This document shows, piece after piece, positions 14,946-45,207 of a stretch of 63,856 bases of DNA (position 1 is the first letter of the stretch; each line of letters opens with the position of its first letter). The stretch is taken from positions 1 to 63,856 of the forward strand of contig SKRC01000025.1 in assembly GCA_007118695.1 (NCBI GenBank), in the 5' to 3' direction. This stretch comes from Balneolaceae bacterium (GTDB lineage Bacteria > Bacteroidota > Rhodothermia > Balneolales > Balneolaceae). The translations under genes were made by a program, and so were the position numbers. The notes beneath the pieces are model-generated. The model made no database searches, had not been told where the DNA came from, and saw nothing but the letters and a program-made list of their open reading frames with translations.

Positions 14946-15027
14946 TAAACCGCATTTTCACCAAGCTCATTTTTTGTACGCGAAGCGAAATTTTTCCCTC
15001 AGCAAGGCGAAGCTAATATAGCAGCGG
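14946..15027 (+). repeat. Dispersed MITE-like repeat, partial copy R1
   Basis: TAAACCGCATTTTCACCAAG opens this copy and matches the inverted ends of the elements at 26451-26684 and 52792-52933. It continues into the family core CTCATTTTTTGTACGCGAAG and then a CCCTCAGCAAGGCGAAGC block. It lies between convergent genes (methyltransferase and alr). No matching right end was found, so it is a fragment. Confidence 0.75.
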
Positions 15028-15047: not shown

Positions 15048-16205
15048 TCACTTCACTGCAACCCGCGGTATGGCGTCGGGGAGCCGGCTCACCAGTTCAT
15101 TGTTGATAGCGTTTGTAAATTCAGAGAATGACCGGATAGTGATAACATGATTCATTTGCCGGCCAATCAAAATTACTTCATCACCCGAGGTAATATCTTC
15201 GATTGAGCTCACATCAACCATAAAAACGTTCATATTAATGAGCCCTACAATCGGAGCTTTTTTGCCCCGGATGATCACTTCCCCCCTGTTTGACAGAGTT
15301 CTCGGATATCCATTGCTGTATCCCAGCGGAAGAACTGCAATTTTCATATCATACGGAGCCTGATAACTGGTTCCGTATCCCACAAATTCACCTTCTCTTA
15401 TCCTTTTTATATGCATCACATCGGTTTTCCAGGTAAGAACCCGTTTCAAAGGCGAGTCCTGTTTTTTGCCAGTCTGCTGAAGGTGCAGATTATAGATATC
15501 GGGACTGGGCCACATGCCGTATTGTGCGGTACCGACCCGTACCAGGTCCATGACCGTTTCAGGAAAGGCGAGGGCTGCGGCTGAACAAGCGGTGTGCCGC
15601 AATGTGGGTTGTAATCCACTATCTGTTACCTGTTTATAGAGCTCATTAAACTTCTGAAGCTGTTTTTGAGTGCGAAACTGATTCGATAAAGACTCAATAC
15701 CGGCATAATGGGTGCAGAACCCTTTCAACTGGAGAGTGCCGGAATGATTTCTCAGATACTCCAGCGCTTCGGGAAGCTTTGATTCAACCAGGCCGGTTCG
15801 ATTACCTCCCGTTTCCACCTCAAGATGAACGATCGCCTTCATGCCCAGTTTTTCAGCTGTCTCCTTTGCTTTTTTTAGCCGGGCCAGGTCAAAGACAAAA
15901 AATTCAACCTTGTTCTTAATCACCCACTCCAGGTCTTCATCATACAAAATACCCATAATCATGATGATGCTGTCTTGTGTGCAGGCGCGGCTTACCTGCC
16001 AGGCCTCATAGCTTGATGCGACCGAGAAATGCCTCACACCCGCTTTTTCTGCCATCGGAACAAAAGTGCCGATCCCATGTCCGAATGCATTTGCTTTTAC
16101 GACAGACGAAATGATGGCATCCGGGCCGATCTTCTTTCGTATGAAATTAATATTCTGTTTCAGAGCCGATTGACTCAATTCAATTCTGGATGAGTGACGG
16201 ACCAT
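15048..16205 (-). CDS. alr: Alanine racemase-like PLP enzyme
   Basis: The 385 residues span the whole family. The PLP lysine K37 lies in SVVKANAFGHG, the second catalytic base is Y277 in VGYGTSY, R223 lies in the RVGTAQYG block and M325 in GLINMNVFMVDV. The enzyme would interconvert L- and D-alanine or a related amino acid. The position that usually holds a carbamylated lysine (HLKVDTG) reads HLEVETGGNRTG, so E129 replaces Lys. This may affect substrate or activity. It is the last of three same-strand genes with an unusual Cys/His protein and an ATP-grasp ligase. That suggests a dedicated D-amino-acid pathway and not only cell-wall supply (inference). Confidence 0.88.
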   Translation of the reverse strand: MVRHSSRIELSQSALKQNINFIRKKIGPDAIISSVVKANAFGHGIGTFVPMAEKAGVRHFSVASSYEAWQVSRACTQDSIIMIMGILYDEDLEWVIKNKVEFFVFDLARLKKAKETAEKLGMKAIVHLEVETGGNRTGLVESKLPEALEYLRNHSGTLQLKGFCTHYAGIESLSNQFRTQKQLQKFNELYKQVTDSGLQPTLRHTACSAAALAFPETVMDLVRVGTAQYGMWPSPDIYNLHLQQTGKKQDSPLKRVLTWKTDVMHIKRIREGEFVGYGTSYQAPYDMKIAVLPLGYSNGYPRTLSNRGEVIIRGKKAPIVGLINMNVFMVDVSSIEDITSGDEVILIGRQMNHVITIRSFSEFTNAINNELVSRLPDAIPRVAVK

Positions 16206-16352
16206 GATTTGAGACTATGTTTTGAAATTAATCGTTTTGGGGTTGGTGGAGGCCTCCGCCCATTCAGGAGTCCAATATCCCTCAAACAAAACACTCAATG
16301 CGCCTGGAAATCTCAACTCGGAGGCAGACATTAAATACTCCCTGAACACATG

Positions 16353-18335
16353 TTACATTGCAAAACCCGCCTGATTTAGCCACTGATAAGATTCACCCCA
16401 ACTGTTTTTTGCCAGCTCCGTTACTTTAACGACCTCTTCATCGTCTACGCTTTGTAAATCTTCCAGGTCGGATTGGTTAAAATGGAATGCATAAAGACGC
16501 GATGCAAACTGGTGAAACGGCAGTGAAGATTCTCCTGCTCGTTCACCATTTCCGGCTACGGTTGGCCTCATATCATCCTGCCACCGCTGGCGGCCTTCAT
16601 TATTGGGATTAAGAATGAATACCCGAACCTGTCCCTTTACTCTTTGAACGCGTAAAATAGAAACAGCATGAAACCCGATTAGTTTCCCTGTAGAAGAGGT
16701 CAAAAATATCCCTACAGGATTTGGGTATGCGAGGTTGTTCCCGCCGTTATATTCGGGATGATGGGTGATGTAGAATGTTCTGATAAACTTTTCATACTCC
16801 TTGATCGAGTTCGTCAGGTAGTCGTAAGCCGAAATAAACCCGGTCGGAATCCAGTGGCCGTACATTGCCGGATTTACCCACTTATGTGGATCGTCATATC
16901 GGTTGGCCGCGCGCCGCATCATCTCATTGTAAATCTTGTCAAGGTGAGGAACCAATACAATGGAAACGGCGTCCAGGTTGTAGTCCAGCTCTTTCACAAG
17001 GCCAAGCACCTGCTCATCCGATTTGATAACGGTCCCTTCAAACCTCATCGAGAGGCTGTTCGATTTCGCCGCATTCTCTACCATATTCAGAAGTTTACCG
17101 GGTGCATGACTACTCCATAAACTAATCCCGCGGGCCGATTGACACGTCGGATTCCATCCCTGGCCCACGCCTAAGGGCTGCCCAAGGATACTCAGACAGT
17201 CTGCCGTTAAAATATGCTTGGGATCAAGAGTACTGTTTTGCCTTGATTGGCGAATATTTCCTTCCACATCTTTGTGCAGCTTCATTCCCAAAATTCGCTG
17301 CAAGCCGCTCTTGACGGGCTGATGAGAAAGCAGCGAACGTTCCAGCAATTTGGCAAGCCCGTAGCAGGATCGTCCCGTATCGGGATGGATTACGGTGCGA
17401 ATCAACTCTGTGACAAAATCTTTATGCTTATCCAGCTCTGCCTTTCCAACATTATCCAGTCCGAGGGCAAGTTTGACGAGAGCTCCTTCATGTGCCACAT
17501 GATTCAAATGTACAGCGTGATACCCGGTGGCCAATCCCGTTTCATGCATCGTATCAGCCAGCATTTCACACTCATGCACAATTTCTTTTCGCCTGGCCTT
17601 GTTCAGATACACCCTGTACTCATCAACGGTTAATTCCCCGGTTTTTTCAGAGGGTGAATAGACCGCATTAACGTAATATCTCAGGCGCCGGTCATCATCA
17701 TTTTCGGACGACAACTCTATTTCATTTTTAACTGTTGAGATGATTTCAAGAACCCGGTCGGTAACTACCGGACGCTGCGCACATATCAGTTCCAGCTCTT
17801 TCGCCAGCCGCCCTTTAATCTTGTTAACAGAAATCTGTTCGGTTAAAAAATTAAAAAGTGCGCTGATCTTTTTTCTTGTGTCTGCATCGATCAATCTCTC
17901 TTCTTCCGATCCATCAGGGAAAATCAGGTCGATATTGCTGACGAGTGCTTCCTCGAGAAATGTCTTTGCCTTTCCGGCAGAAAAATTCTTCAGTTTGATG
18001 GAGCCGTTTGCAATGGCTAGCAACCGCAGTTCACTCAAAATTTCAACAATGGTGTTTTGCCCGCCTGCCTTCAGTGTTCCGCCCACGAGCGACGGGACTA
18101 ATCTTGCCGGATCATCCCACATGGTATCCCTGAATATTCCGGCATCCACGAGCTCACTGATGTGATCATACAGAAATTTCATCCCATCCTCCCTGTCTGT
18201 CAAAAGGTCCAGGCTACTGAGCAGTTTCTTTTTATGAGTCTCCGCCAGCAGGGGTGAGGCTTGTTTAAAGTTCTCAAGTGTTTCACGGAACTTGTCTCTT
18301 ACGCCTTGGGGTATTTTTTTACTGTTTTTATTCAA
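16353..18335 (-). CDS. Unrecognised 660-residue protein with possible Cys-peptidase-like core
   Basis: I do not recognise the family. The first 350 or so residues are mostly helical and charged. The C-terminal part has the block GQGWNPTCQSARGISLWS with C398 at a helix start, KLIGFHAVSILRV with H556, and VFILNPNNEG with N576. The order Cys, His, Asn, with His on a strand leading to NP(N/D), is that of papain-like and C39-like peptidases or transglutaminases. Histidine-rich segments (HECEM...HETG...HLNHVAHEG, about 254-283) could bind metal or be structural. No signal peptide or membrane helix is present, so it is cytoplasmic. It lies 147 bases upstream of alr and 202 bases downstream of the ATP-grasp gene, all on one strand. 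Confidence 0.7.
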   Translation of the reverse strand: MNKNSKKIPQGVRDKFRETLENFKQASPLLAETHKKKLLSSLDLLTDREDGMKFLYDHISELVDAGIFRDTMWDDPARLVPSLVGGTLKAGGQNTIVEILSELRLLAIANGSIKLKNFSAGKAKTFLEEALVSNIDLIFPDGSEEERLIDADTRKKISALFNFLTEQISVNKIKGRLAKELELICAQRPVVTDRVLEIISTVKNEIELSSENDDDRRLRYYVNAVYSPSEKTGELTVDEYRVYLNKARRKEIVHECEMLADTMHETGLATGYHAVHLNHVAHEGALVKLALGLDNVGKAELDKHKDFVTELIRTVIHPDTGRSCYGLAKLLERSLLSHQPVKSGLQRILGMKLHKDVEGNIRQSRQNSTLDPKHILTADCLSILGQPLGVGQGWNPTCQSARGISLWSSHAPGKLLNMVENAAKSNSLSMRFEGTVIKSDEQVLGLVKELDYNLDAVSIVLVPHLDKIYNEMMRRAANRYDDPHKWVNPAMYGHWIPTGFISAYDYLTNSIKEYEKFIRTFYITHHPEYNGGNNLAYPNPVGIFLTSSTGKLIGFHAVSILRVQRVKGQVRVFILNPNNEGRQRWQDDMRPTVAGNGERAGESSLPFHQFASRLYAFHFNQSDLEDLQSVDDEEVVKVTELAKNSWGESYQWLNQAGFAM

Positions 18336-18537
18336 CAGATAGCTCTTAATTAATTCTGTATTGCTGATGTATCTATAACATGAATAATAGAGATGTTTCA
18401 GGGCAATTATAAACGATCTTTTCGGATCAAATTAAGCCCCTTCATCCTTTGCACGTTCGATTGGATAAAGAGGCATCGTTTATTTATTGCAGGAAGGGGA
18501 AATGTTCCGCTACTCCTGTAAGGGAAACAAAAAATCT

Positions 18538-19761
18538 CTATGCATAGAAATCAATATCCTGGTAATGCCGCAAAAGTTCGCGCATTCGGTCCGGGTCATC
18601 TCCGTTGAAAAATACGGTGCCGTAGTGATTTCCGAAACCCTCGCGCTCATCAGATACTTTATGTTCCGACGGCGTGTAAAGCGTGTGATCTTCAAAGAAG
18701 GAATCCTCTTTGAGTTCATCAGGAATCTGAAGTTTGGTAATTCGTCCCGGCTTGGGATAGACCATTACGCTGCCTGCGTAATTTTGATCATCTTTGATAT
18801 CCTGTTTCGGGAAAAAGTTTTCAACTTCTTCATCCGTGGCTGAAGGGTCACTGCATAGAACAAGGCCCTGAATGGGATCAAAGCCGTGTGCTTTTTCAAT
18901 CAGTTCAAAGATGTGTCCCCCGGGTATGCGGCAGGCAACTTCGCCAAAATTGAGAGTATTGTCTTCCGTCAGGAACCATTCGGGATGGATCATTCCATAT
19001 TCAATCCCAAAGGATTTAACCAGCCGCTCCATCGCATCGCGGATCAGCGGACGCTTTGCTTCGAGATCCGGCCCGGCAGGCACAAAATTAGAATAGCCGA
19101 GCTTCACATATTCGGTAATATTCAGGAACCGGATTTTTCCATTATGGATGAACGCTTCACATGAAAACTCTTTCCCTGGCAGATGACTTTCTACCATACA
19201 TGGAAAATCCTTGTCGATCACTTTCTCTTCAATATCATCTTTAGTCCGCAGGAGTTTGTGTCCGACTGTACCTGCGGCACTGAACGGTTTCAGATGGACC
19301 CAGGCATCCTCTTCACCGGGGAGCTGAAGATTCGCTTCATTCAGCCTCTCCATGAAATCATGGACACCCTGTTTGGTATAGACCTCTTCAAACAGCCCCA
19401 CTCTCAGACCGGCCAGTAGTGCTTTTCTTTTCATGATCGCTTTATTTCGAAACAGGTAGGCGCGATTCAACAGCCTGGGATCATCACGGAAGATAGAGTT
19501 TAATGCACCGGCCCATTCTACAGTCTCCTCATAAAGGGGAACTGCAAAATCAACATCAAATTCATCCAGAAGTGCTTTTAACTGCAAACTGTTAGATTGT
19601 TCATTCCACTCCTTGAAGTTCCACCCTACGAAATCGATTGCGTTATCTTTGGCGGCCTGTTCGAACTCCGGAAAACTGACAACGACAAAAGGACGATCTG
19701 TCTTTTGTATGCTCTCTATTGCCTGCAGGCTCCAGCCTAAAAGTGCTACTTTATTACCCAT
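18538..19761 (-). CDS. ATP-grasp ligase (carboxylate-amine ligase type)
   Basis: The 407-residue protein has a short Rossmann-like N-terminal domain (GNKVALLGWSLQAIESI), a central ATP-grasp domain with VHLKPFSAAGTVGHKLL and CMVESHLPGKEFSCEAF, and the magnesium-binding strand NFGEVACRIPGGHIFELI. These enzymes make an acyl phosphate from a carboxylate with ATP and join it to an amine, as in dipeptide and D-Ala-D-Ala ligases. The amino acids used cannot be predicted. It is upstream of the Cys/His protein and alr on the same strand, so a D-amino-acid or peptide product is a reasonable guess only. Confidence 0.85.
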   Translation of the reverse strand: MGNKVALLGWSLQAIESIQKTDRPFVVVSFPEFEQAAKDNAIDFVGWNFKEWNEQSNSLQLKALLDEFDVDFAVPLYEETVEWAGALNSIFRDDPRLLNRAYLFRNKAIMKRKALLAGLRVGLFEEVYTKQGVHDFMERLNEANLQLPGEEDAWVHLKPFSAAGTVGHKLLRTKDDIEEKVIDKDFPCMVESHLPGKEFSCEAFIHNGKIRFLNITEYVKLGYSNFVPAGPDLEAKRPLIRDAMERLVKSFGIEYGMIHPEWFLTEDNTLNFGEVACRIPGGHIFELIEKAHGFDPIQGLVLCSDPSATDEEVENFFPKQDIKDDQNYAGSVMVYPKPGRITKLQIPDELKEDSFFEDHTLYTPSEHKVSDEREGFGNHYGTVFFNGDDPDRMRELLRHYQDIDFYA

Positions 19762-20481
19762 AACTGATTGATTTTCTTTTAAAGTGTGTTTGATCTGAAC
19801 AAATACGTCAAAGGCATCTGGTAATTAGATATAAAATTTTGGTATGCAATGACTTACTTATTCATTTAATGAAACTGGAGTCAATATCATTCCATTAGAT
19901 GCTGTGTGGATCAATATTTAAACCAGCATCAGGCCCAGTCTAACCCGGATATCTACCAGAAAAACAGGGTGTTTTTTTCGAAGACTCCAAAATGGATCAT
20001 AAAAAATTTTAAATATCAAATATCAAAGTGACATTACGTTTAACATATTTACTGTGAGATATCCGGGTTAATTGTACCGGTCAAAAAACCAATGTTGAAT
20101 GTAGATGGGTTCACTCCTGCGATCTGACGTTGCCCGCATTTTTCACCAAGACATTTTTCCCTCAGCAAGGCGAAGCTAAAATGGCAGCTAACCCGAATTT
20201 ATCACCAAGCTCATTTTTTGTACGCGAAGCGCTCCGAGTGAAGCGATTCCCACGTAGTGATATTTGATTGTATGCAAGGCGTCCCGAAAATGGTGGCGGA
20301 AACATCCCGTACAGCTGTCGGATGTTGAACACGCTATTATAGCTTTAACGCAGCTGAGGGGAATAGTTCGCCGGAAAACATCCTGTTCATACACTCCCTC
20401 AAACTCACCGGCAGTTCTTTACAGAAGACCTTCAGGTTGAAGCGGTTCGTTATCATCCCCCGACACACTGTTGCCATTGCC
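19762..20481. other. Spacer between gyrA 3' end and ATP-grasp gene
   Basis: The 744-base gap holds the promoter of the ATP-grasp cluster at its left end and dispersed repeat R2 at 20131-20314. The stretch 19870-20060 is AT-rich without any frame worth calling. The right end holds the gyrA hairpin. No gene was seen; the open frames in it are short and overlap the repeat. Confidence 0.5.
20131..20314 (+). repeat. Dispersed MITE-like repeat, composite copy R2
   Basis: Begins TGCCCGCATTTTTCACCAAG and runs into a CCCTCAGCAAGGCGAAGC block. It then restarts with ATCACCAAGCTCATTTTTTG and the core TACGCGAAGCG, and ends with ATTGTATGCAAGGCGTCCCG and a GAAAATGGTGGCGGAAAC block. The last part is the reverse complement of the right half of element R3 (26451-26684), so this copy is rearranged or nested. 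Confidence 0.75.
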
Positions 20482-44852: not shown

Positions 44853-45207
44853 ATTCTGGAAATTTCGATTTCTTCAGTTAACGCATGAAAGTTACATCAA
44901 ATTTCACATTATTTTTGACTAAAATGCAACAGTGAATGTTCCAAATTATACTTGAAATGAAAGAGATGTTTAAGCTTATACATATGACTGTAAGTCCGCA
45001 TTTCGTTTCACGGGAATTGTTTCACTTCGTGGGTATCGATACGCTTGCAGCGCTTCGCGTGGAAAAGATGAGCGTTCGTAGCTCACAACTATTTTAACTT
45101 CGCTTTGTTGAGGGAAAAATTTCGCTTCGCGTACAAAAAATGAGCTTGGTGAAAAATGCGGGATAGTGTAACCGATCAAGTCATGTATCGCTGGCGGTTC
45201 TAATGAG
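44853..45207. other. Spacer with dispersed repeat R4
   Basis: The 355 bases between the thioredoxin-fold and YdjM-like genes contain no gene. Element R4 fills 44991-45165. The promoter of the thioredoxin-fold gene should lie at the left end. Confidence 0.5.
44991..45165 (-). repeat. Dispersed MITE-like repeat, copy R4
   Basis: The right end GTGAAAAATGCGGGATA mirrors a decayed left end TAAGTCCGCATTTCGTTTCA at 44991. On the minus strand it reads TTTTTCACCAAGCTCATTTT, the core TACGCGAAGCGAAATTTTTC, then CCTCAACAAAGCGAAGT. That order matches R1 and R2. At 175 bases it looks like a near-complete but diverged member. Confidence 0.72.

Follow-up and report, generated by a model that had tools for sequence, protein, structure and literature searches.

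This locus of a Balneolaceae bacterium (assembly GCA_007118695.1, contig SKRC01000025.1; the whole stretch analyzed, 63,856 nt, is denoted the window) raises the question of what product, if any, is made jointly by three consecutive minus-strand genes. An earlier note had placed here, in this order, an ATP-grasp protein, a 660-residue protein and an alanine racemase (Alr), and the corresponding open reading frames are present: a ligase of 407 aa at 18538..19761 (-), an unnamed cysteine enzyme of 660 aa, hereinafter P660, at 16353..18335 (-), and an Alr-type PLP racemase of 385 aa at 15048..16205 (-). The ligase and P660 genes are separated by 202 bp, and the P660 and racemase genes by 147 bp. 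The P660 start codon is TTG, at the same position as in close relatives in the alignment, and none of the three proteins contains an obvious signal peptide as judged by eye. A comparison of the 10-26 kb region of the window with Rfam at the gathering threshold yields no matches, and promoter and terminator scans produce hits at chance level only. None of the three proteins is matched by a PADLOC model, and the idea of a defense or phage system finds no support in PADLOC or PHROGs.

P660, the product of the central gene, has no match in Pfam, NCBIfam, PADLOC or PHROGs, and phmmer and profile searches against PDB sequences detect nothing credible; whether the search is started with a single sequence or a profile, assignment to the known peptidase or transglutaminase families in Pfam, NCBIfam and PDB fails. 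Judged by sequence, P660 belongs to no named family. However, the alignment of 39 homologs (A1, including paralogs, with identity down to ~30%) contains four invariant residues in the order Gln, Cys, His, Asn that is typical of papain: Q392 (17160..17162), the counterpart of the oxyanion Gln; C398 (17142..17144), the presumed nucleophile; H556 (16668..16670), the presumed catalytic histidine; and N576 (16608..16610), the presumed third catalytic residue, all on the minus strand. Q392 precedes C398 by six residues, the same spacing as between Gln19 and Cys25 of papain. The earlier proposal that C398, H556 and N576 form a papain-like series, which hinged on the conservation of C398 and H556, is thus upheld in all 39 sequences.

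The AlphaFold2 model of P660 built from this alignment (mean pLDDT 88.5) consists of an all-helical N-terminal region (approximately residues 10-371, 17223..18308 (-), delineated with DSSP and the alignment) followed by a predicted papain-like catalytic domain (approximately residues 372-620, 16476..17222 (-)), the latter suggested by the order of secondary structure elements in the model and by weak Foldseek similarity to cathepsin B. In the model, helix 398-410 starts with C398, H556 lies within a strand (552-566), and N576 immediately follows the adjacent strand (569-575), an arrangement that is shared with papain and cathepsin B (clan CA). A Foldseek search with this model returns no significant match; cathepsin B is the only coherent group of enzymes among the hits (probability up to 0.66, E ~0.25, low TM-score), and the remaining hits, all at the noise level, are helical-repeat proteins, in agreement with the all-helical first half. 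Unlike papain and cathepsin B, P660 is 660 aa long, appears to be cytosolic, and lacks a sequence match; it also differs from these enzymes by the helical N-terminal half, in which E98, R104, R188, E255 and Y325 are invariant. Because four of these residues (E98, R104, R188 and E255) are charged, the N-terminal half is probably more than a spacer. Taken together, the model and the invariant residues are best compatible with a papain-like mechanism, and a papain fold is likely.

A single scan of GTDB genomes identified 90 relatives of P660, of which 80 were kept; the hosts belong to Bacteroidota and Bacillota, with the addition of one Gemmatimonadota metagenome-assembled genome (MAG). Searching the open reading frames of these loci for partner genes with phmmer shows that, in each of the 75 loci that contain both genes, the gene immediately upstream of P660, in the same orientation, encodes the ATP-grasp protein, often at a distance of 6-25 bp. 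The racemase gene, where present, is downstream of P660 on the same strand (47 of 47 loci) and mostly overlaps it; it belongs to the Bacteroidota form of the cluster and is missing from the Bacillota loci. Many Bacillota loci encode a second P660 paralog, and in 25 loci, nearly all from Bacillota, a divergent gene for a protein of ~190 aa is located just upstream of the ligase gene (e.g., L048, 5996-6565); the two copies of this protein that were scanned show a weak match to the GNAT family (PF13508, 28 bits). The module is patchily distributed, being found in 4 of 296 genomes in a sample of the phylum and in 9 of 92 genomes of the window's own family. Among 249 genomes sampled evenly from one Bacillus order, 36 encode P660 and the identical 36 encode the ligase, a coincidence with a chance probability of ~10^-43 under a calculation that ignores relatedness. 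The gene order and co-occurrence are far beyond chance, and the absence of conserved linkage, which would have undermined the earlier note, is not what the neighborhoods display.

This coupling bears on the chemistry of P660. Papain-type residues are most often proteolytic, and in two Bacillota genomes copies of P660 that lack an adjacent ligase gene have an M20 dipeptidase gene in the vicinity, as might be expected if P660 were a hydrolase acting on the dipeptide product of the ligase, in its trimming, degradation or recycling. However, P660 without the ligase occurs in none of the 249 genomes of the Bacillus order, the two genes are tightly coupled, and the duplication of P660 in many Bacillota is equally compatible with a synthetic step. 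A hydrolase therefore appears unlikely to us, and an acyl or peptidyl transferase is the preferred reading.

The ligase itself scores just above the threshold of the Pfam family ATP-grasp_4 (PF13535, 28.3 bits, cut-off 27). A Foldseek search with its AlphaFold2 model (pLDDT 88.9) places the L-amino-acid ligase RizA (4wd3) first with an E-value of 1.3e-24, BL00235 at ranks 2 and 4, and YwfE/BacD at ranks 5-7 (TMq up to 0.79), and RizA is also the best hit of the ligase profile in PDB (5.3e-11). Characterized L-amino-acid ligases are thus the closest structural relatives, and the protein is predicted to share their overall ATP-grasp fold and might, like them, act in stand-alone dipeptide synthesis independent of nonribosomal peptide synthetases (NRPS). 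In contrast to these enzymes, it has an obligate partner, P660, belongs to a family linked to ornithine genes (see below), and is below all NCBIfam cut-offs as well as that of LAL_C2 (14.8 bits vs 29.4 for LAL_C2; 12.8 vs 850 for the BacD equivalog). Across phyla, members of the family are 53-92% identical to the window protein (alignment A3), a higher level of conservation than that of P660. RizA shows high specificity for dipeptides whose N-terminal residue is arginine, and mutations of its residues K83 and S84 altered activity and specificity (PMC9321006). The invariant E78-E79-T80 of the present family aligns with E82-K83-S84 of RizA; the extra acidic residue would suit a basic substrate, which is a faint hint at best. 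With sequence identity to RizA of just ~18%, the substrate specificity of the ligase cannot be read from that enzyme.

The racemase contains both Alr domains (Ala_racemase_N, PF01168, 157 bits; Ala_racemase_C, PF00842, 133 bits) and exceeds the alanine racemase threshold of TIGR00492 (286.4 bits, cut-off 168). The PLP lysine K37, Arg136, and the catalytic Y277, the equivalent of Tyr265, are invariant in the cluster racemases (alignment A2), which share 55-84% identity with the window protein. A distinct feature is N369 (15099..15101 (-)), at the position of the inner-layer Tyr354 of Geobacillus Alr: among 20 cluster racemases, this position is occupied by Asn in 17, by Gln in two, and by Ala in one. 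In Geobacillus Alr, Tyr354 restricts the substrate to alanine; its counterpart is Thr in the lysine racemase Lyr, Ala in the broad-specificity racemase Bar, and Asn in VanT (PMC3485190). The cluster racemase thus resembles VanT, Lyr and Bar as an Alr-fold PLP racemase in which Tyr354 is replaced, and it is not a clear member of either type. Although it has the Asn of VanT, it scores 251 bits against a VanT-G cut-off of 460, and although position 354 fits Lyr and Bar, the conserved Arg is followed by Thr (motif NRTG) rather than directly by Asn as in these enzymes. The loss of Tyr354 is suggestive and no proof of a new substrate because the other Alr of the same genome lacks this tyrosine as well, with His in its place.

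This other Alr (359 aa, TIGR00492 307.8 bits, 31% identical to the window protein) is encoded on contig C77, which makes the window racemase a second Alr in this genome, and the possibility that it is the only one, on which the earlier interpretation would have foundered, is dismissed. The accompanying premise that in Bacteroidota the cell-wall racemase is often fused to MurF agrees with four cluster-bearing Bacteroidota relatives that have, in addition to the cluster racemase, a reading frame of 813-848 aa, which by length alone corresponds to a MurF-Alr fusion; in the window's own genome, the C77 gene is instead stand-alone. A cell-wall function of the whole module, with the racemase providing D-Ala or D-Ser, the ligase attaching it to another residue destined for peptidoglycan, and regulation accounting for the association with arginine genes described below, would accord with the TIGR00492 score and with Asn at position 354, the state of the VanT serine racemase (PMC3485190). 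Nevertheless, we consider it highly improbable: no mur, ddl or van genes were noticed beside the module in the locus maps inspected, the genome possesses another Alr, the Bacillota module has no racemase, and the ligase matches RizA and BacD, with no Ddl among its 50 best structural matches. Because only the Bacteroidota form includes the racemase, D-residues are not the core of the pathway. The earlier proposal of a pathway that makes or processes a peptide containing a D-amino acid accordingly retains its peptide-making part, which the RizA/BacD-like fold of the ligase and the papain tetrad of P660 favor, but loses its emphasis on the D-amino acid, which was rejected as the core because Bacillota clusters lack the racemase.

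The strongest clue to the substrate, one that the earlier note did not foresee, is the linkage to argB-D-C-J. Clustering of the neighboring open reading frames identified ArgC, ArgJ, ArgB and ArgD in both Bacteroidota and Bacillota. Genes for these enzymes are present within the flanking DNA of 14 of the 80 loci, and a fifteenth case, L119, comes from the window's own family, with the gene order argB-D-C-J-ligase-P660-racemase. The arrangements vary: the arg genes are upstream in tandem in L045, L047 and L119, downstream in tandem in L024, L026, L027, L043 and L044, and divergent in L039, L087, L015 and L018, whereas in Bacillota they follow as argC-J-B-D in L060 and L062 and as argJ alone in L065. 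Some of these arrangements are on the same strand with gaps of 16-33 bp. With the exception of Cyclobacterium, where the neighbors include argG and argF, the linked genes encode exactly the steps from glutamate to ornithine.

Most of the cluster loci, the window's included, have no arg gene within the flanks examined (66 of the 80), as would be expected if the linkage had arisen by chance or only for regulatory reasons and ornithine had nothing to do with the substrates. Against this, about 0.5 arg-linked loci would be expected by chance (a rough estimate) compared to the 14 observed, the linkage must have changed no fewer than 9 times along the ligase tree, and, among the neighbor families listed, no specific metabolic families other than ArgC, ArgJ and the core genes recur across both phyla. 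A coincidence of this kind is quite improbable, although shared regulation may account for the linkage in part.

The phyletic distribution of ArgJ is compatible with a connection to ornithine. Of the 39 cluster-bearing genomes, 37 encode ArgJ (the exceptions are G302 and G305), compared with 123 of the 296 genomes sampled from the phylum; within the window's own family, ArgJ is found in 8 of 9 genomes with the module and in 25 of 83 without it (p=0.001). Four Bacillota genomes (G301, G327, G328 and G330) encode a second ArgJ, as expected of a dedicated ornithine set. In most of the Bacteroidota, argJ is a single-copy gene, so their arg genes are needed for regular arginine biosynthesis as well. 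In the window's genome, argB-D-C-J is located away from the cluster, on contig C77 (5528-9957).

A related reading retains the module and replaces free ornithine with arginine or N-acetylornithine as the basic substrate, so that an arginyl-type dipeptide would be formed as by RizA, the closest solved relative of the ligase. The argG and argF neighbors in Cyclobacterium fit this possibility, and the divergent GNAT protein of Bacillota could N-acetylate the product or ornithine; however, all other arg-linked arrangements end at ornithine, and we consider these substrates unlikely. The neighborhoods with arg genes further resemble the LysW/ArgX carrier pathway of arginine synthesis, in which an ATP-grasp ligase is likewise encoded beside homologs of argB, argC and argD. 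Unlike in that pathway, no LysW carrier is seen here, the module also exists without arg neighbors, and, given the presence of argJ, the acetyl cycle is complete.

Together, these observations lead us to propose, as a reading that we would put at even chances, that the genes constitute a cytosolic module for the production of a small ornithine-containing, peptide-like metabolite, with the ligase and P660, the latter as a transferase, performing the key reactions and a D-residue included in Bacteroidota. Under this scheme, ArgB, ArgD, ArgC and ArgJ, encoded next to the module in many relatives and on a different contig in this genome, would supply ornithine. Through an acyl phosphate formed at the expense of ATP, the ligase would then couple ornithine (or arginine) with another amino acid. 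The Cys-His-Asn site of P660, assisted by the Gln, would pass an acyl or peptidyl group from a thioester to an amine, so that the product is completed or rearranged. In Bacteroidota, the racemase, freed from the restriction to alanine, would supply or make the D-residue, perhaps D-Ser or D-Orn. The gene linkage, the co-occurrence, the conserved residues, the predicted ligase fold, the substitution in the racemase and the association with ornithine genes are observations, whereas we infer the substrates, the order of steps, the transferase rather than hydrolase activity of P660, and the product.

The pairing of an ATP-grasp ligase with a papain-like enzyme is reminiscent of BtrJ and BtrH of butirosin biosynthesis, an ATP-grasp ligase and a papain/NlpC-like acyltransferase that act together. 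The present module differs in that no carrier protein was noticed in the loci inspected, and P660 has no BtrH_N match and possesses the long helical N-terminal region. Among the neighbor families listed, there is no conserved transporter, carrier protein or NRPS beside the module, and a metabolite that is kept in the cell, as an osmolyte or a store, would fit this composition of the neighborhoods. Judging by record titles, many of the Bacteroidota hosts come from marine, hypersaline or soda-lake habitats; soil bacilli carry the module too.

N-delta-acetylornithine is a reported solute of aerobic Firmicutes (PMC2329653), and its synthesis was considered here given that Planococcus carries the module. 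As such, this explanation was rejected, because one acetyltransferase should suffice for that compound, leaving the ligase and P660 unexplained; by analogy with this solute, an osmolyte role is nevertheless a suggestion worth considering. More specifically, and only tentatively, the product could be an undescribed natural product or compatible solute, namely an ornithine dipeptide or pseudopeptide that in Bacteroidota includes a D-residue and is made by a core of two enzymes, a RizA-like ligase and a member of a new group of papain-fold transferases.

We found no description of the ligase-P660-racemase system in the open-access literature, and the three-gene pathway is conserved in bacteria and absent from the libraries searched. 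P660 accordingly represents a family with an invariant papain-type tetrad that spans two phyla and one Gemmatimonadota MAG and has no relative in Pfam, NCBIfam or PDB. The strict pairing with the ligase and the recurrent linkage to ornithine genes yield a concrete, biochemically testable hypothesis on the substrate. If this hypothesis is correct, ornithine peptides would have a new biosynthetic route that does not involve NRPS, and P660 would define a new family of transferases with the papain fold.

Several individual loci deserve mention. The two P660 copies without an adjacent ligase gene (L126, 7536-9527, and L127, 7794-9776) are each found near an M20-type dipeptidase gene, the one in L127 matching PRK08201 with 714 bits, and both of these Bacillota genomes carry a paired ligase-P660 elsewhere. 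In four Bacillota cases (G581:C33, G598:C31, G449:C57 and G404:C52), the match to the second P660 contains one or two stop codons, which may reflect either decay of the paralog or a match that runs past the end of the gene. The ligase of L048, from a record titled Chryseobacterium sp. ISL-80, nests among those of Bacillota, and the gene arrangement is of the Bacillota type, so the assembly is probably mislabeled or contaminated. Similarly, L024, from a record titled Rickettsiales bacterium NP5, has a ligase that hardly differs from the one in L026 from Marinoscillum pacificum, and the NP5 MAG is therefore probably misassigned. Finally, the window contains a dispersed intergenic repeat (14955-15025, 20140-20231 and 45123-45155) that consists of the 33-mer TTTTCACCAAGCTCATTTTTTGTACGCGAAGCG and a neighboring 39-mer; the counts of the 33-mer are 3 for the window, 15 for the genome and 0 for the reversed-pattern control, and two copies of the repeat flank the three-gene cluster.
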